NCBI RefSeq assembly: GCF_943736985.1
Contig: NZ_CALSFS010000001.1
Coordinates: 186,001-250,000, forward strand
DNA: 64,000 bases
Direction of reading: 5' to 3'
DNA from: Clostridium sp. Marseille-Q2269
Lineage (GTDB): Bacteria > Bacillota > Clostridia > Clostridiales > Clostridiaceae
The translations under genes were made by a program, and so were the position numbers. This document shows positions 22,987 through 61,980 of this stretch, one piece after another. How positions within the stretch are numbered: position 1 is the stretch's first letter; every line of letters begins with the position of its first letter. A model generated the notes under the pieces. The model made no database searches. It saw only the letters and a program-made list of their open reading frames with translations, and was not told the DNA's origin.

Positions 22987-24396
22987 TTAAGAATTATCTG
23001 ACTTCATGTATTTTGCCCACAGGCTGTCTAAACCTACGGTTTTAAAAAATTCATTATTTAGAGTAGTTTGTAAAATAGGACTATTAGCTGTACGCCAGTA
23101 TCCTTTTCGGGTATTGGCATATTTTATTGCTTGAGTATGTGTATATACCAGCTTTTTAAGATTTTTATATCTTGTTTTAACCTTTTTCCATTGTTCCCAT
23201 ATACACATTCTTATTCTTTGCTTAATCCATATTTCAAAATTTTTGATTATTCCTTTACAGTTTGATATTGCAAAATAGTTTATCCATCCCCTATTCAAAA
23301 GATTAAGTTTTATTATTCTTTCTTCTATCGTAAATGGTTTTGACCTACTGGTTATTTTTCTAACTTTATCTTTGTATCTATTAACAGCTTCAGTAGATAC
23401 TCTTAGTTTAGAAGTATACCTAGCCCAATAGAATGAAAATCCTAAAAATTTTCTTCTCCATGGTCTATCCACTTCACTTTTGTCTTTATTTACTTTTAAT
23501 TTAAGTTTATTTTCAATAAATAAACTTATACTTTCCATGACTCTATTTCCTGCCCTTTGGCTTTTGACATAGATATTACAATCATCAGCATATCTGCAAA
23601 ATTTATGACCTCTTCTTTCTAGTTCTTTATCAAGGTCATCAAGAATTATATTAGATAATATAGGACTCAGTGGACCACCTTGTGGTGTACCTTGTTTTGT
23701 TCTATCAATTACACCATTTATCATAACTCCAGATGCTAAATAAGCTCTTATTAATTTTAGTACTCTTTTATCTTTAATTTTCTTAGATAATTTGAATATT
23801 AAAATATCATGGTTAACTTTATCAAAGAATTTTTCTAAATCAATGTCTACTATCCATATATTTCCTTCATTAATATATTTTTCTGCTTGTTTAATTGCAT
23901 CATGGGCACTTTTCTTAGGTCTAAATCCATAACTTGAAATTGAAAAATCTTCATCATAAATAATGTTTAATTCTTGAGCAATAGCTTGTTGAATTAATCT
24001 ATCCAATACTGTTGGAATTCCTAATAATCTAACTCCTCCATTTGGTTTTGGTATTTCAATCCTTCTTACAGCCTGTGGCTTATACTTTCCTTTAAGAATA
24101 TTTTCTTTTATGGTAATCCAGTTATCAATTAGAAATTGTTTAAGTTCATAAACTGTCATTCTATCAATACCTGATTTGCCTTTGTTGGCAACAACCTTTT
24201 TATAGGCTAGTTGCATATTTTCTCTTGACAATATTCTTTCTAAGGAACCATATTCAAGCCCATCGGTTTCTCCTCTTGTAGTTGCCGTGATTACTCTATG
24301 CACTCCGTGCTTATCCTTAGGTTCCACCTTACTTTTAGCCTTAGAGCCTAAATATTTAGTTTTCTGCAATTGTTGAGTATTCTTCGAAACTTTCAA
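22987..24396 (-). CDS. ltrA: group II intron reverse transcriptase/maturase
   Basis: A 469-residue intron-encoded protein that assists splicing and copies the intron during retrohoming. Reverse transcriptase motifs are intact: RRIEIPKPNGGVRLLGIPTV (about 118-137), QGTPQGGPLSPILSN (about 250) and the catalytic FCRYADDCNIYV (near 287). The maturase (GIIM/X) domain with LNRGWINYFAISNCKG follows near 380. No HNH endonuclease is fused, as in class C introns. The start is TTG with AGG upstream; it lies within intron domain IV. The uninterrupted frame and intact YADD suggest the intron is active or recently so. Confidence 0.93.
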   Translation of the reverse strand: MKVSKNTQQLQKTKYLGSKAKSKVEPKDKHGVHRVITATTRGETDGLEYGSLERILSRENMQLAYKKVVANKGKSGIDRMTVYELKQFLIDNWITIKENILKGKYKPQAVRRIEIPKPNGGVRLLGIPTVLDRLIQQAIAQELNIIYDEDFSISSYGFRPKKSAHDAIKQAEKYINEGNIWIVDIDLEKFFDKVNHDILIFKLSKKIKDKRVLKLIRAYLASGVMINGVIDRTKQGTPQGGPLSPILSNIILDDLDKELERRGHKFCRYADDCNIYVKSQRAGNRVMESISLFIENKLKLKVNKDKSEVDRPWRRKFLGFSFYWARYTSKLRVSTEAVNRYKDKVRKITSRSKPFTIEERIIKLNLLNRGWINYFAISNCKGIIKNFEIWIKQRIRMCIWEQWKKVKTRYKNLKKLVYTHTQAIKYANTRKGYWRTANSPILQTTLNNEFFKTVGLDSLWAKYMKSDNS

Positions 24397-24815
24397 GTTT
24401 TAAAACCTACCAAAGTTCAGTCCTTCCTACGCTACCGCGTATTTACGTGGTACTATGACCTCTGCTGATTTCTGATAGTTCAGCTATATATCACTATATA
24501 GGTTATCATTTATGAATTACATCATCTGATGATATATCTATCAGACCTCCCCAGGTAAGAACAACAACCTTCATCTCATATATCTGTTACATTTACTCCT
24601 AAGAATTTGAGTAGTGTTGGACTTTGTTTTGTTTAGCAAACTCGTCCGTCCTTAGTAAGCCTTGTATGTAGTTCGTATCCCTCAGACCGAGACTTTGCCT
24701 CTGACTTCCTTCAGATTCCATCTCACAATGGACACCCTTGTCATTAGCTAGTGGTTCCCACTACTAAGCCCACAACGGACTTTCACCGTCAAGTTGTTGC
24801 CCATGCTGGGCACAC

Positions 24816-55862: not shown

Positions 55863-56807
55863 CTATTTCATATATTGGGCTATATTATATACACTTTTTT
55901 CTAGTTTTTTATCTACTTTGTGAGCCTCATCTATATGTTTTACAATTTGAATATTTGTTTCAGTAAGAATGTTATCTACTTCGTTTATTCCATTAAAAAT
56001 ATTAACTATATCCTTCTTTTGAGTATTAATTATTTTAATTAACTTATCAGTATCATCTTCAACTATATTAAATGAATTTAAAACTTGTTCTATTTTTTCA
56101 AGAGCTCCTTTAGAAGATTCTACTCCATCTGTAACTACCACTGTGCTTTTTTCTACACTTTTCAAAACATTTTTAGTCTGCGAATCTATTCCATTAATTA
56201 AGTTAGTTATATTACTACTACTTTCACCGGTCATCTCTGCCAATTTTCTAACTTCATCAGCAACTACGGCAAATCCTTTACCTTTCTCTCCTGCACGAGC
56301 GGCTTCTATAGCAGCATTAAGAGCGAGAAGATTCGTTTTTGAGGCTATACCGCTTATTAATTGAGCTATTTCTCCAATTTCTTTTAACTTTTTACCCAAA
56401 GCATTAATATTTTCATATGTATTTTTGGTTTCTATATCAAGATTTTCAATTACTTTAACCATTCCTTCTATTGATTTTCTACCCTCTAAAGACTTATTAA
56501 CAGTATCCTTTGTAACTTCCAATAAACTTTCACCTTGATTAAAAAGTTTGTCCGTTGATTTATTAGCCCTGTCGGTTAAATCTGATACTGTTACCATGTG
56601 TTCTTCAATCTGCTTTGCTAATTTTTCTAGCACCTCATGTTCACTATTAACCTTATTATGCTGCTGTATTATACCTTCTATTTGTGTAGTCATTTCTTTT
56701 AGAAATTCTATAGTATTGCTAGTTTCAACTTCACGCTTGTCCTTAACAAAAACATCTTGTTCAATAGTTTCATTTTTACTATCTTTTTTACTAAAAATAT
56801 TTATCAT
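55863..56807 (-). CDS. soluble methyl-accepting chemotaxis protein
   Basis: A 314-residue chemoreceptor with no membrane helix and no recognised sensor domain. Residues 1-35 are polar, then coiled-coil (about 40-145), the signalling tip with [20 protein letters not shown] and [13 protein letters not shown] (about 160-200), and a return coiled-coil. It should sit in a cytoplasmic CheA/CheW array and sense an internal signal or work with a partner. AGGAGGAC lies just before the ATG. No che genes are nearby. Confidence 0.88.
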
Positions 56808-56906
56808 AATATAGTCCTCCTAATATCTATCTCATTAATAATAGATTATCGGAAAAGCTTTTGAAAACTAAACATGTACTATAAAAGGCATTGTTCTATA
56901 TTAAAT

Positions 56907-57566
56907 CTAATTCATGAATTTTTTTTCAAAGTCTTCATATCCTTTTCTTCTTAATTTGCAAGATGGGCATTCCCCACAACCATCTGCTTTTATTCCATTA
57001 TAACATGTTAAAGTTTCATTTTTAACAATATCAAGCACTCCTAGATCATAGGCCATTTTCCAAGTTTCTGCTTTATCGATCCACATAAGTGGTGTAAGTA
57101 TTTCAAATTCATAATCCATAGCTAAGTTTAGAGTAACATTTAAAGATTTTATAAAAATATCTCTACAATCTGGATATCCACTAAAGTCACTTTGTGATAC
57201 TCCTGTTATAATAGTATTTATTCCTTTTTGTTTTGCAAACACTGCAACAAAGCTTAAAAATAATAGATTTCTTCCATCTACAAAGGAATTAGGAACTCCT
57301 TTATCAGGTGCACTTTTATCCACATTTATATCCTGCCTAGTTAAAGAATTAGATGCTAATTGATTTAATAAATTAAGATCTAAAATATGATGTTCTATAT
57401 GATATCTTTTGCATATATCCTTTGCACAGCTAAGTTCTAACTTATGCTTTTGATTATAATCAAATGATACTGCTATAACTTCTTTATATTTTTCCTTTGC
57501 CCAAAATAAACAAGTTGTACTATCTTGTCCACCGCTAAATACTACTATTGCTTTTTCTTTATTCAT
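56907..57566 (-). CDS. queC: 7-cyano-7-deazaguanine synthase
   Basis: A 219-residue ATP-dependent enzyme making preQ0 from CDG and ammonia. PP-loop [17 protein letters not shown] (about 11-27). The zinc site is CGECPSC near 200-206 plus the Cys of [25 protein letters not shown] is characteristic. Last gene of the preQ1-riboswitch operon, 159 bases after folE; AAGGATG is the ribosome site. Confidence 0.95.
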
Positions 57567-57725
57567 TCATTTACACATCCTTTTGTTTTATAATTTAAGG
57601 GTACTTTCCTTATCACAACCATTTTTTTAATATTAATTAATATATTAAAGTTTATGATTTAGGTATAAAATATTCTTTTTCAAATATTCATGTTAATAAT
57701 TTTATATTTTAAACTAATAATATCT

Positions 57726-58316
57726 TTATTTAGTATATAGCATCATTAGTTTATTGCTTATAATTGGATCCGTATTAAATCTACCTCTCAACGTAGTTGA
57801 TATAGTTTTAGTTCCTGGTTTTTTTATTCCTCTAGTGGTCATACATCCATGTTCCCCTTCTATAATAACAGCTACATCTTCTGAATTAGTTATTTTTTGT
57901 AATACTTCTGCTATATCGCTCCCAATTCTCTCTTGAAGTTGTAATCTACGTCCTATCATATCAGCTACTCTTGCAATCTTACTTAACCCTATAATCTTTC
58001 CATTAGGTATATATGCTATAGCTACTTTCATGTTGTACATAAGAGCTAAATGATGTTCACAGTGGCTAAATATTTCTATATCCTTCATAAAAACCATATC
58101 ATCTTGACTTTTATCTATAGATAAGTCATCTTCAAAAGTCACATTAAACATCTCTGCAATTTCATAATTGGTATAACACATACCCTTAAATATTTCTTCA
58201 TACATTTTAGCCACACGTTTTGGTGTATCTTTTAATCCTTGTCTATCAGGGTTATCTCCTAAGGCTTTTAATATTCCTGTTATATGCGCTTCAATTGCTT
58301 TAACATCAATTTCCAT
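57726..58316 (-). CDS. folE: GTP cyclohydrolase I
   Basis: A 196-residue zinc enzyme converting GTP to dihydroneopterin triphosphate, the entry to queuosine (and folate). Motifs: [14 protein letters not shown] (about 30-43), [13 protein letters not shown] (about 83-95) with zinc-binding Cys and His, and [15 protein letters not shown] (about 154-168). Starts three bases after queE, inside the queuosine operon, so it probably serves this pathway. Confidence 0.95.
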
Positions 58317-58319
58317 ATG

Positions 58320-58985
58320 CTACACTCCTCTCTTATTAGGATCCCATATAATCTTATGAAGCTGTACTTGTAAGTTCACTCCATTCATTTTGTTATTTAT
58401 CATAAATTCCACCATATCATCTAAATTAATTTTTCCAAACACGGGACTTATATATACATTAGTTCTATTTGCTAGATTATATGTATTTATTATTTCTTTA
58501 GCTCTTTCTAGATCTTCCACACTACCTGATACAAATTTTACTGTATCTTTATTAGTTAGATATTTAAAATTATCTAATACCATTTTATTTTCCATATTAC
58601 TTGAAGGCAATTTATAATCCATAGTAAAGCTTGGTGCACTTTTTATATTTGAAAATTTATTTAATAATATACTTCCATTAGTTTCTATCTCTACCTGGAG
58701 TTCTTTATCTTTAGAAAGTACTTCTAACAATTCTATTATTCCTTCCTGCAAAAGAGGTTCTCCACCTGTTAAAGTTATATTTTTTATCTCTTTTAATTCA
58801 ATATAATCATATATATCCTCAACACTCATTAATTCATAGACTACATTTTTCTCATTTGCCCAAAGTGTATCGCAATAGCTACAGTTTAAATTACATCCTG
58901 CAAATCTTATAAATATAGCTAATTGTCCACATTTTCTTCCTTCTCCATTTATACTTAAAAATTTTTCCACAACTTTGAAATTCAT
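58320..58985 (-). CDS. queE: 7-carboxy-7-deazaguanine synthase (radical SAM)
   Basis: A 221-residue radical SAM enzyme forming CDG from carboxytetrahydropterin. INGEGRKCGQLAIFIRFAG then CNLNCSYCDTLW (about 30-40) is the CX3CX2C cluster motif, and LTGGEPLLQ (about 73-81) binds SAM. The frame extends 17 codons upstream into queD; the family start MNFKVVEKFLSINGEG at 58985 lies one base after the queD stop with GGGG upstream, so it is preferred. Confidence 0.93.
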   Translation of the reverse strand: MNFKVVEKFLSINGEGRKCGQLAIFIRFAGCNLNCSYCDTLWANEKNVVYELMSVEDIYDYIELKEIKNITLTGGEPLLQEGIIELLEVLSKDKELQVEIETNGSILLNKFSNIKSAPSFTMDYKLPSSNMENKMVLDNFKYLTNKDTVKFVSGSVEDLERAKEIINTYNLANRTNVYISPVFGKINLDDMVEFMINNKMNGVNLQVQLHKIIWDPNKRGV

Positions 58986-58986
58986 C

Positions 58987-59418
58987 TTACTTAACCCCGC
59001 TTTTCTCATAAGTAGCACTATTATTAGGAGTTTCATATACAGTGACTTTTTTTACATCATATCCCATATCTTTTATAGTTTTATAAAAAAATACTGCAAA
59101 ATTTTCTGCTGTTGGTCTAAAATCAACTTCTATTATTCGAAATCCATCTTCTTTTAATGAATTTAATGATTTCTCCCTCATAGTATTATTTTCTATTATT
59201 AATGCATGGTCATAATAATCTACCATGGATATAATATCTTTTTTTAGGTCCCCAAAATCTATTACCATTCCATCCAATTGCCCACCTTCTACTAGGGATT
59301 CTGATTGAACCTGAATTTCAACTTTCCATCTATGTCCATGAATATTACCACATTTACCTTTATAATTAGCTAAAAAATGAGCACTATCAAAACTATGCTC
59401 TACCTTCAAAATATACAT
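58987..59418 (-). CDS. queD: 6-carboxytetrahydropterin synthase
   Basis: A 143-residue zinc enzyme acting after FolE. HSFDSAHFLANYKGKCGNIHGH (about 8-29) contains the zinc His residues and catalytic Cys, and MVIDFGDLKK (about 51-60), DYYDHALI and ETPNNSATY mark the family. AGGAGGAC lies upstream. It is the first canonical queuosine gene in the operon, right after the activase-like gene (14-base gap). Confidence 0.94.
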   Translation of the reverse strand: MYILKVEHSFDSAHFLANYKGKCGNIHGHRWKVEIQVQSESLVEGGQLDGMVIDFGDLKKDIISMVDYYDHALIIENNTMREKSLNSLKEDGFRIIEVDFRPTAENFAVFFYKTIKDMGYDVKKVTVYETPNNSATYEKSGVK

Positions 59419-59432
59419 ATTAGTCCTCCTAT

Positions 59433-60194
59433 TTACTTTAAAAATTTATTACCATAATAACAGCATCCAATGGCTCCATTAAATTGAGGATCTTCTATAG
59501 ACACTATCTCTTCATAATCCTTGTTTAAATATTTCTTTATAGATTGATTATTAGCAACACCACCAGTTAAAATCAATTTTTCTGCTCTAAATTTACTTAA
59601 AAGAGGCTGTAATCTTTTATATAAAGAATAATTAACTCCAGCACATAATCTTTCTATATGTATTCCCTCTGCTATTTTTCCAATTAATTCTGACTCTGAA
59701 AACACTGCACAGGTTGAGTTCAAATCTACAGGATTTTCTGAATACTTGCTCATTTCATCTAAAGATATTTCAAGTACATTTGCCATATTTTCTAAATATC
59801 TACCACAGGAAGCAGCGCATTTTTCGTTAAGTTCCAAATCTGTAGCAAGTCCTTTTTCTACCTTAACAACTTTAACATCCTGACCACCTACATCTAAAAG
59901 TATAAAATCTTTTAAGGCACTTTGATAAATTGCCCCATAAACATGAGCTTTTATCTCATTTATGGGTGTGAAAAGTTTTAAGTCCGTATTATTTTTCCCA
60001 TAACCTGTTGATATAGCTTTATCTATTTTTTCTATGTTAAGCTTTGCTAAATCTACTACTACCTTTCCATGAAAACTACAATAATCTCTATAGAATTTCA
60101 TAGTACTTACTTTTTTCTTTTTAACTATTATGTTATCTTCCATTAAGACAATCTTAACTTCTCTACTTCCAAGATCTATGCCTAAAAGTCTCAT
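59433..60194 (-). CDS. BadF/HgdC-type activase ATPase in the queuosine operon
   Basis: A 253-residue ATPase of the ASKHA fold, like activators of 2-hydroxyacyl-CoA dehydratases. MRLLGIDLGSREVKIVLMED begins it with the phosphate-binding loop. ILLDVGGQDVKVVKVE (about 94-109), LNEKCAASCGRYLE (Cys near 123 and 127), STCAVFSESELIGKIAEG (Cys about 162) and LTGGVANN follow. The Cys residues hold a [4Fe-4S] cluster between two subunits, for ATP-driven low-potential electron transfer. Starts 86 bases after the dehydratase-like gene and 14 bases before queD. Its substrate system is unknown. Confidence 0.85.
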   Translation of the reverse strand: MRLLGIDLGSREVKIVLMEDNIIVKKKKVSTMKFYRDYCSFHGKVVVDLAKLNIEKIDKAISTGYGKNNTDLKLFTPINEIKAHVYGAIYQSALKDFILLDVGGQDVKVVKVEKGLATDLELNEKCAASCGRYLENMANVLEISLDEMSKYSENPVDLNSTCAVFSESELIGKIAEGIHIERLCAGVNYSLYKRLQPLLSKFRAEKLILTGGVANNQSIKKYLNKDYEEIVSIEDPQFNGAIGCCYYGNKFLK

Positions 60195-60279
60195 TATTTC
60201 CTCTCCTTTTAATTTAACTAGTGGTTAAATAGACTTGTATCCTATGAATATACTACTATAAATATATACCTTTAACTAA

Positions 60280-61272
60280 TTACTTTTTTAAATCCAATAA
60301 CATGTCTAAAAAAGCCTCTAATCTAAGCTTAGTTCTTGCATCTAGCTTATTTAGCTTATCTCCTTCAATATTCAATATAGGAATATCTATATATTTTTTT
60401 AGTACTATATCTTCAACAGATCTATGACAAAAGGCTTGAGTGTAATGTATTATAGCATCTATATTTCTATTTTCCATTTGTTTTTTCAATTCTTTTATTC
60501 TAAATTCAATATTGTATGGATAAGTATAATCATAATATTGTTCAAATATATTTGTAGCATCATTTCCCCTTGGAAATGCAAATTCTCTTTGCACTTCATT
60601 GTATACAAAATGGGCATTAAAATTATAAACAAAGTCATATATATCTGCAGTCATTGGAGGAACTCCTATATATGCTAATCTTAATTTTTTATTTATAGGC
60701 TCTCTTTTAGAGGCATATACAATAAAATCCTTAAGTTCATGTTCAAATTTATCTATATTTCCATTAAAATCACTTAAACTAACTTGATATAAATGATTTT
60801 CAAAGCCACTAACTTTATTATCTATGTATGTCATTTCATCTATTTTTTTTAATAGTTTTCTAACTTTATTTAATCTTTTTCTAACCCCTTCAACCTGCTC
60901 TTTATTAACGTTAAATATATTCATAAATTTTTTAATTTCAATTTCTATATCATTTAAATTATGACTATTAGGGAAAGAAAATGGATAAACTTTTATGCCC
61001 TTCAATTTTAAAACATCAATGAGCACCCTAGTATTAGAACAATCACCTTCCATAACTCCAACTATTTCTTTGATATTGTTTTCTAGGCATGCTCCATAGA
61101 TTCCCTTTATCCAGGCACATAGGCTTTTAGGAAATCCGTCCCTTTCAGCTATATCTATATATTTTAAATAATTATCTGAAATTATAAATATATTATTTAA
61201 ATCTACAGGTAAATATCCAGCTGCAATAAGTACCTCAATTGGTACTGTAGTTGTTAATCCTATTTTTTTCAT
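60280..61272 (-). CDS. 2-hydroxyacyl-CoA dehydratase-like protein in the queuosine operon
   Basis: A 330-residue protein resembling HgdB/D-component and benzoyl-CoA-reductase subunits. KKIGLTTTVPIEVLIAAGYL matches their start. Cys52 (SLCAWIKG), Cys62, Cys78 (EGDCSNTR) and Cys282 (AFCHRS) can bind a [4Fe-4S] cluster. RLAYIGVPPMTADIYDF (about 198-214) is typical. There is only one such subunit, instead of the usual pair. It is the first gene behind the preQ1 riboswitch and is followed by its activase-like partner and queDE-folE-queC. This placement suggests a reductive step in deazapurine metabolism instead of amino-acid fermentation; that is inference. Confidence 0.82.
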   Translation of the reverse strand: MKKIGLTTTVPIEVLIAAGYLPVDLNNIFIISDNYLKYIDIAERDGFPKSLCAWIKGIYGACLENNIKEIVGVMEGDCSNTRVLIDVLKLKGIKVYPFSFPNSHNLNDIEIEIKKFMNIFNVNKEQVEGVRKRLNKVRKLLKKIDEMTYIDNKVSGFENHLYQVSLSDFNGNIDKFEHELKDFIVYASKREPINKKLRLAYIGVPPMTADIYDFVYNFNAHFVYNEVQREFAFPRGNDATNIFEQYYDYTYPYNIEFRIKELKKQMENRNIDAIIHYTQAFCHRSVEDIVLKKYIDIPILNIEGDKLNKLDARTKLRLEAFLDMLLDLKK

Positions 61273-61435
61273 TTTTCTTTCTCCTCATATTTATATGTAT
61301 CAATATTTTTAAATTACAAACATGCACATCTGCTTATACGTATCACAAACTTATTATATTAGACTTATTGAAAATTAAATAATACCCTCTATCCTTTATA
61401 TAAAACAAATAATATAGCATACAAATTTTCCAAAT

Positions 61436-61486
61436 AAAAAAAGGGCATAAAATGCCCATCAATAAAAAACTACCTAAGGCGGTAGT
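61436..61486 (-). terminator. riboswitch terminator and a second tandem hairpin
   Basis: Minus strand: ACTACC-GCCTTA-GGTAGT followed by TTTTTT (61486-61464) directly after the aptamer, then GGGCAT-TTT-ATGCCC followed by seven T (61457-61436). The first is the expression platform. The second may tighten shut-off. Confidence 0.85.
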
Positions 61487-61491
61487 CACGT

Positions 61492-61529
61492 CCTAGTTTT
61501 ATTTATAGACAGGATGGTTACGAACTGTC
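61492..61529 (-). promoter_or_regulatory. preQ1-I riboswitch aptamer
   Basis: Minus strand: stem GACAG (61529-61525) / CTGTC (61512-61508), loop TTCGTAACCATC, then the A-rich tail TATAAATAAAACTAGG (61507-61492). It matches the known preQ1-I layout (short hairpin with UUC loop, A-rich tail ending in ACUA-GG) and is followed at once by a terminator. High preQ1 should stop transcription of the downstream operon. Confidence 0.88.
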
Positions 61530-61551
61530 TTTATTCTCTTTTTATAAAAAT

Positions 61552-61580
61552 ATATTACTATATTTTACTTATTAAGTCAA
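61552..61580 (-). promoter_or_regulatory. sigma-A promoter of the preQ1-controlled operon
   Basis: TTGACT (61580-61575), 17-base spacer, TAATAT (61557-61552) on the minus strand. Transcription would start about 15 bases before the aptamer. Confidence 0.75.
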
Positions 61581-61646
61581 ATTAATAGATATTTATATCC
61601 ATAGAAATATTTATATTACAAAGTTTCTGCAATACTTTTTTGAATA

Positions 61647-61662
61647 TGACATAATGTTGTCA
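61647..61662 (+). promoter_or_regulatory. TGACA/TGTCA operator-like dyad
   Basis: TGACATAATGTTGTCA is a dyad with TGACA/TGTCA ends. TTGTCA in it can serve as a -35, with a weak -10 17 bases on. It lies about 155 bases upstream of the truncated GyrI-like gene and probably was its regulator site. Confidence 0.4.
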
Positions 61663-61816
61663 AAACCTTCCTATATAATGTAAATAGTCCTATATGAAAG
61701 GAGAATAAACATATATAGATATCTTCAATAAAAGAAAAGAGAATAAAATCATATTAAATAAAAACATTAATGAAAAATTCACTACAAATTTTTTTAAAAT
61801 AAGGAGAAACGAATAT

Positions 61817-61980
61817 ATGATTACTAAAATAATAGAAAGAAATGAAATGATCGTAGTTGGAAAAGAAGTAAGGACAACAAACAAAGATGGTGCCTTTATG
61901 GCTGTAATTCCAAATCTTTGGAAAGAATTTAAAGATAAAAACTTGAGTGAGAAAATATTAATTTTTATTAATGTATTACA
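61817..61980 (+). pseudogene. truncated GyrI-like effector-binding domain gene
   Basis: From an ATG with AAGGAG ten bases upstream the frame reads MITKIIERNEMIVVGKEVRT and later AVIPNLWKEFKDKNL. This is the start of the GyrI/AraC effector-binding fold (IVE..E..VVG, IP.LW.EF). Homology stops near codon 47. The frame then runs into the antisense of the MOSC gene until 62104. The C-terminal two thirds are missing, so a deletion joined this fragment to the moa region. Confidence 0.65.

Follow-up and report, generated by a model that had tools for sequence, protein, structure and literature searches.

A PF06050 protein and its activase head a queuosine operon

The window analyzed here is a 64,000-nucleotide stretch of Clostridium sp. 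Marseille-Q2269 (NCBI RefSeq assembly GCF_943736985.1, contig NZ_CALSFS010000001.1, positions 186,001 to 250,000 of the forward strand), and our subject is a pair of genes at the head of one of its operons. The first encodes a 330-amino acid iron-sulfur protein of the HGD-D family (PF06050) and the second a 253-amino acid BadF/HgdC-type ATPase, the activase; queD, queE, folE, and queC follow, all on the minus strand, and a preQ1-I-like aptamer core precedes the unit (Table 1). An earlier interpretation made from the letters of the window (the sequence-only reading) had given the same order of iron-sulfur protein, ATPase, and preQ0 pathway genes, which the matches to Pfam and TIGR profiles bear out; it had bounded the unit at 58320-61580, and the lower bound needs correction, the unit extending to the end of queC at 56907. 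For queE we preferred the start at 58985 over the end of the open reading frame at 59036 because the TIGR03963 match begins at residue 20. We consider it very likely that the pair is an ATP-dependent reductase that converts preQ0 (7-cyano-7-deazaguanine) to preQ1 (7-aminomethyl-7-deazaguanine), standing in for the NADPH-dependent preQ0 reductase QueF.

Table 1. Genes and leader elements of the queuosine operon, in window coordinates
Feature	Position	Strand	Evidence
Plausible sigma-70-like promoter TTGACT-17-TAATAT	61552-61580	-	Sequence match
preQ1-I-like aptamer core	61492-61529	-	P1 GACAG/CUGUC, A-rich tail ending CUAGG
Terminator-like hairpin 1	61468-61487	-	Folding and terminator search
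Terminator-like hairpin 2	61443-61457	-	Folding and terminator search
PF06050 (HGD-D) iron-sulfur protein	60280-61272	-	PF06050 E 1.4e-36, 127.2 bits (cut-off 28.4)
BadF/HgdC-type ATPase (activase)	59433-60194	-	PF01869 and TIGR00241, both above cut-offs
queD	58987-59418	-	TIGR03367 above cut-off
queE	58320-58985	-	TIGR03963 E 1.4e-109; open reading frame open to 59036
folE (GTP cyclohydrolase I)	57726-58316	-	PF01227, TIGR00063
queC (preQ0 synthase)	56907-57566	-	PF06508, TIGR00364

The HGD-D protein, used as a query against species genomes, yielded 53 loci, six of them distant (37-43% identity; Riflebacteria and Sumerlaeota among the sources) and the others in Clostridium and other Clostridia, in Fusobacteriota, and in Halanaerobiia (a class to which we presume some loci to belong from their genus names). 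In the window, as in 47 of the 53 related loci, the activase gene adjoins the HGD-D gene, and homologues of queC, queD, or queE are also present in 38 of these 47, so that the finding named by the sequence-only reading as telling against it, a pair never linked to queuosine genes elsewhere, is not what the relatives display. Four loci (L014, L015, L024, and L029) have a divergent queC-queD-queE set, at 33-39% identity to that of the window, and in L014 and L024 Pfam also identifies a folE2; the pair has therefore joined at least two types of operon. In the remaining nine loci the pair is adjoined by a QueT gene (PF06177; L019 and L026) or stands beside a gene that is QueT-like by likeness (L028 and L031) or a Vut_1/YhhQ gene (PF02592; L022 and L036); no transporter gene was seen in L018, and L032 and L050 are short contigs.

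The known preQ0 reductase is missing from pair genomes

Genomes of 50 of the 53 loci (L048, L049, and L050 were left out) were tested for steps of the queuosine pathway. QueF (PF14489) was over the cut-off in none of the 50, in a search that was positive in 7 of 14 control genomes, and matches below the cut-off in three pair genomes (G009, G046, and G050) were interpreted as FolE-like. That one of the window's own proteins might be QueF was rejected, there being no PF14489 match among the eight scanned. QueA is present in 48 of the 50. QueH was found in 22, and QueG was above the cut-off in 24, none of which overlap the QueH carriers; the QueG match of G013 contains an internal stop codon. Four genomes have neither over the cut-off: G027 and G043 carry QueG-like matches of 170 and 94 bits, respectively, G014 has a fragment close to the start of a contig, and in G042 none was found. 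In nearly all pair organisms, then, the late queuosine genes are present and the known preQ0 reductase is missing.

The lead example of the sequence-only reading had been deoxygenation of epoxyqueuosine in place of QueG or QueH, a role that would suit a reductive pair within a queuosine operon. With QueG or QueH over the cut-off in 46 of the 50 genomes this replacement was rejected, and it would also leave the absence of QueF unexplained; we give it next to no chance of being right. The expected co-occurrence of the pair with absence of queG, queH, and queF held for queF and failed for the other two. QueH and QueG act after insertion into tRNA and coexist with the pair, for which we propose a place earlier in the pathway. 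That the pair serves a reductive step of queuosine metabolism is supported; the first interpretation was of the right kind but erred in its main example.

The pair and QueF exclude one another in the genomes surveyed

We surveyed 343 genomes from the class of G001 (Clostridia) and 91 genomes of Fusobacteriota; completeness values are absent for these genomes, and an absence in a single genome may reflect an assembly gap. In the Clostridia the pair protein scored at least 266 bits in 26 genomes (in two pieces in one of them, G038), and all other matches were at or below 53 bits. QueF exceeded 100 bits in 40 genomes, none of which has the pair too. Among the 52 Clostridia with QueC above the cut-off, 24 have the pair only, 28 have QueF only, and none has both or neither (p = 2e-15, if the genomes are taken as independent); two pair genomes (G026 and G099) and 12 QueF genomes are without QueC. 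The Fusobacteriota contain 12 genomes with the pair, 11 with QueF over the cut-off, and 23 with QueC, these last being divided into 11 with the pair only, 11 with QueF only, none with both, and one with neither, and a single pair genome (G039) lacks QueC. Pooling the 75 QueC-positive genomes gives 35 with the pair only, 39 with QueF only, none with both, and one with neither (nominal p = 1e-20).

QueF matches of 20-32 bits, which cover 54-62 of 81 positions in frames of 176-253 amino acids, were not counted as QueF; judged by length and score, they would be FolE-like T-fold proteins. Six Clostridia (G290, G212, G285, G351, G330, and G226) have only such weak matches over the cut-off, and counting them creates no overlap because none of the six has the pair.

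These surveys bear on the possibility that the HGD-D protein is a 2-hydroxyacyl-CoA dehydratase of the ordinary kind, or a double-cubane protein (DCCP), placed near queuosine genes by chance or for pooled expression. It does belong to the same superfamily, yet its linkage to queuosine or transporter genes recurs in Clostridia, Fusobacteriota, and Halanaerobiia with two different queC/D/E sets, the pair excludes QueF, and its scores are set off by a clean gap in the 343 genomes. On linkage together with exclusivity we reject a chance neighborhood, and we lend very little credence to an ordinary dehydratase in any form.

A shared leader and a positional swap

The aptamer core ahead of the operon had been called a clear preQ1-I aptamer, which is too strong for the window, where RF00522 aligns over its full length (model positions 1-45 of 45) at 61487-61533 with 19.3 bits, far under the gathering score of 39, and where a full-window Rfam scan at gathering score has no preQ1-I aptamer among its matches. 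From the window sequence alone the aptamer is a suggestion; once the relatives are included it becomes convincing, the core being conserved in them. With a search pattern composed after the sequences had been seen, the core was found in 45 of 46 loci at most 700 nucleotides ahead of the pair; both strands of those 46 loci (831 kb) hold 47 copies in total. The two surplus copies belong to L010 and L011, whose operons are split, with another core ahead of queD (positions 2787 and 7217 in L010; 5109 and 8956 in L011). Rfam scans at gathering score found no preQ1 family in seven pair loci that seemed to be without the motif, in six of which a looser pattern recovered the core (the exception is L024), nor, in a second scan, in 11 loci, including the core-bearing QueF loci L072 and L074. 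The layout of a preQ1-I riboswitch, with P1, loop, and A-rich tail upstream of preQ1 genes, was found here as well as in four QueF genomes, and the ligand would be preQ1. The core appears to be a near-invariant preQ1-I-like variant that RF00522 missed at its gathering score in all eight core-bearing loci scanned whole; in both Clostridia and Fusobacteriota this variant stands before operons with the pair and operons with QueF alike.

Two terminator-like hairpins lie downstream of the aptamer, a terminator having been noted by the sequence-only reading, and three such hairpins were found in 56700-61900 against 1.0 expected from shuffles; hairpin 1 would be expected to form with the aptamer occupied. 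Few shuffles equal the stability of the leader fold (8 of 200; z -2.1). The promoter sequence is present and is plausible at best; promoter-like matches number 45 against 38.2 in shuffles (standard deviation 6.5), no clear excess.

We examined the regions of eight QueF genomes (for G123 the QueF region only). The core precedes queuosine genes in four of the eight (G192, G260, G304, and G405). The order is core-queD-queE-folE-queC-queF in L072, L073, and L090, the last of which is from Fusobacteriota, core-queT-queF in L074, and core-queC in L075, and in pair genomes the core stands ahead of pair-queD-queE-folE-queC or of pair-queT. Such a positional swap is what one would predict if two enzymes were interchangeable at a single step.

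Fourteen pair genomes, picked mostly for having no linked queC, were tested for QueC, which is absent from six of them (G018, G022, G026, G028, G031, and G036). All six have QueA and lack QueF, and five carry a QueT- or YhhQ-type gene next to the pair (L026, L028, L031, L022, and L036). According to passages of PMC5372724, YhhQ imports preQ0 in E. coli. Import of preQ0 followed by its reduction would fit the QueC-less genomes, and a role for the pair before preQ0 would not. These same six genomes are what might favor action of the pair at some other point, such as reduction of an amide or acid intermediate that bypasses preQ0, or of another salvaged deazapurine; that account sits poorly with the transporter gene beside the pair in five of them and with the fact that 35 of the 38 genomes with the pair in the two surveys have kept QueC, and we judge it very unlikely. 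The salvage of preQ0 or queuine offered as a further example by the sequence-only reading came close in naming preQ0, and is better stated as preQ0 reduction, both de novo and in salvage, in replacement of QueF.

The HGD-D protein resembles ATP-driven low-potential reductases

The HGD-D protein contains four cysteines, at positions 52, 62, 78, and 282, as the sequence-only reading had counted in describing a single subunit unlike an ordinary HgdAB system. Cys-52, Cys-78, and Cys-282 are present in all 43 aligned sequences and align with cysteines of DCCP; Cys-62 is present in 37 and is lost in the six distant ones. The three invariant cysteines would hold one [4Fe-4S] cluster per subunit, leaving an open iron. 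An AlphaFold2 model of the protein (mean pLDDT 90.8, pTM 0.87) matched 19 chains of the Protein Data Bank at E of 0.001 or below, all of them subunits of DCCP, (R)-2-hydroxyisocaproyl-CoA dehydratase, or benzoyl-CoA reductase (BCR), with query-normalized TM-scores of 0.68-0.83. The closest solved relative of the activase is 1hux (E 1.6e-35), the activase-family structures 4eht and 9gai being matched also, and its Cys-126 and Cys-162 are invariant in 32 of 32 sequences and align with cysteines of 1hux. Sequence, fold, the three cysteines, and the partner ATPase all place the protein in the BCR/HAD/DCCP radical enzyme family (PF06050). In both its predicted fold and its activase the pair matches the ATP-driven low-potential reductases, and it would make a fitting catalyst for a hard reduction.

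The nearest known system is DCCP with its reductase (6eno and 7yyl), which by E-value gives the best match in fold (TM 0.81, E 2.2e-15), is also the best sequence-profile match, and, like the pair, consists of one catalytic gene and an activase. Passages of PMC11971306 describe DCCP as homodimeric, with an [8Fe-9S] cluster in each monomer, and as reducing acetylene, hydrazine, and azide, and describe the related [8Fe-9S] cluster of BzdN as held by six cysteines, against the three invariant ones here. DCCP was rejected as an identity, the NF040772 score being 45.8 bits against a cut-off of 350 and the invariant cysteines three where six are needed. HadBC/HgdAB and the class I benzoyl-CoA reductases share the fold (TM at most 0.83) and the activase family (1hux, 4eht, and 9gai), and the three-cysteine site is as in BzdO and HadB, for which PMC11971306 gives a catalytic [4Fe-4S] cluster held by three cysteines and water in BzdO with the same coordination in HadB. 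The pair differs from them in having one catalytic gene and not two, in its length (330 amino acids versus 373-438), and in its queuosine context. An HgdAB/HadBC identity was rejected as well, two adjacent catalytic subunits not being found and each of the 53 loci holding one homologue (blastp E at or below 1e-8).

QueF resembles the pair in pathway place, operon, and riboswitch, and the two are mutually exclusive in the surveyed genomes, but their folds are unrelated: QueF has a tunnelling fold, as a passage of PMC5372742 states, and the pair protein the PF06050 fold. QueF uses NADPH, whereas the pair is proposed to use ATP and ferredoxin. Unlike QueF, the pair protein is without an obvious thioimide cysteine, because no cysteine besides the three likely cluster ligands is conserved in all 43 sequences.

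Elsewhere in the window, group II intron domains lie at 24420-24732 (RF02001, 141 bits; RF01998, 69 bits), adjoined by an open reading frame of 469 amino acids on the minus strand (22987-24396) that may be the reverse transcriptase of the intron.

Proposed mechanism

Our observations are of gene content and linkage, of the mutual exclusion with QueF in the surveyed genomes, and of the shared core, the predicted fold, and the conserved cysteines; from them we infer the substrate and the product, the electron donor, the type of cluster, the dimer state, and the riboswitch ligand of the following scheme. The reaction would be the four-electron reduction of the nitrile of preQ0 to the amine of preQ1, with preQ0 supplied by synthesis through FolE, QueD, QueE, and QueC or by import through a QueT- or YhhQ-type transporter. 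An activase dimer would carry a [4Fe-4S] cluster between its subunits, to be reduced by ferredoxin or flavodoxin, and ATP hydrolysis would lower the potential of this cluster and drive single electrons into the PF06050 protein, probably a homodimer, with its [4Fe-4S] cluster on three cysteines and one iron open. preQ0 may sit in the place where, in the relatives, the acyl end of the CoA thioester is bound; its nitrile would be reduced by way of the imine, in two two-electron stages, to the amine. The product would then enter tRNA through Tgt, and preQ1 would shut the operon through the riboswitch.

For some Tgt enzymes preQ0 is itself an acceptable substrate, which makes conceivable a pair that replaces QueF by acting on preQ0 already in tRNA and not on the free base, and all of the genomic evidence given above would hold equally for it. 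A preQ1-I-like riboswitch with the same core as in QueF genomes suggests, against this, that free preQ1 occurs in the cell, and the structural relatives act on small molecules according to passages of PMC11971306; we regard action on tRNA-bound preQ0 as quite improbable.

Several observations weigh against reduction of preQ0 by the pair. To our knowledge, nitrile reduction by an enzyme of the PF06050 family has not been reported. The exclusivity is phylogenetically clumped, with few independent switches: a QueC tree built from 73 of the 75 genomes (G266 and G040, with QueC in two pieces, were dropped) needs just three changes of the pair/QueF state, and the nominal p values therefore overstate it. 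Well-supported branches of this tree force at least three changes for the pair; an independent-pairs sign test has three contrasts and with so few cannot reach significance, and in one of them QueF is the same. One genome of the Fusobacteriota, G429, has a queC-queD-queE operon (L165, 5199-6961) with neither the pair nor QueF; its assembly may be incomplete, preQ0 may serve another purpose there, or a third reductase may exist.

Other points on the same side concern the core and the distant relatives. The core was not found in the regions examined of the QueF genomes G340, G310, G123, and G439, nor upstream of the pair in L024, even with the looser pattern. It was likewise not found upstream in a divergent pair clade with HGD-D proteins of 48-51% identity (L080, L081, L083, L084, and L085, with little upstream sequence in L083); L079, a relative of this clade, carries it. 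Near the HGD-D gene of the six distant loci (L046-L049, L051, and L052) neither an activase nor que genes were found. An activase search in four distant genomes gave a good match elsewhere in G046 (272 bits) and only 78-100 bits in the other three.

Two further arrangements were seen among the relatives. The best activase match of G046 (Sumerlaeota), at L091 3436-6341, lies by open reading frames that resemble by eye a 2-oxoacid:ferredoxin oxidoreductase, a possible low-potential electron source. In G428 a second, solitary HGD-D copy (L082, 4936-5901; 66% identity to the window) has no activase adjoining.

Implications for nitrile reduction and for queuosine in anaerobes

The step, the pathway, the riboswitch class, and the protein superfamily are all already known; an assignment of the superfamily to queuosine and nitrile reduction is what we did not find, no description of PF06050 proteins in either context having come up among the papers listed from the open-licence literature, which did not cover preprints, and an earlier description elsewhere is possible. 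The undescribed reductive queuosine step linked to a preQ1 riboswitch, as the sequence-only reading put it, is supported as real and widespread. The pair would probably represent a second natural nitrile reductase, unrelated to the first: driven by ATP, this iron-sulfur enzyme would take up the nitrile of preQ0 at the open iron of a [4Fe-4S] cluster and reduce it in low-potential single-electron steps, and it would be spread over anaerobes of several phyla. Such chemistry would, as we think reasonably likely, be nearer that of nitrogenase or of enzymatic Birch reduction than that of the NADPH-dependent QueF; class I benzoyl-CoA reductases, in the account that passages of PMC11971306 give, may attain about -1 V by ATP-driven electron transfer. 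Replacement by a non-orthologous protein has a precedent in the queuosine pathway in QueH, as passages of PMC5372724 relate.

If the assignment is true, it would add a new reaction to those of the ATP-driven radical reductases, a group in which the physiological role of DCCP is termed unclear in a passage of PMC11971306, and a new type of catalyst for nitrile reduction. It would also fill a pathway hole in many anaerobes. Queuosine reconstructions count QueF as required (PMC6593275 and PMC11130926, in the passages concerned), and organisms with YhhQ and without queF are described, in part of PMC5372724, as unable to use preQ0; species that carry the pair would therefore be scored as unable to use preQ0, the very compound that their pair would reduce.

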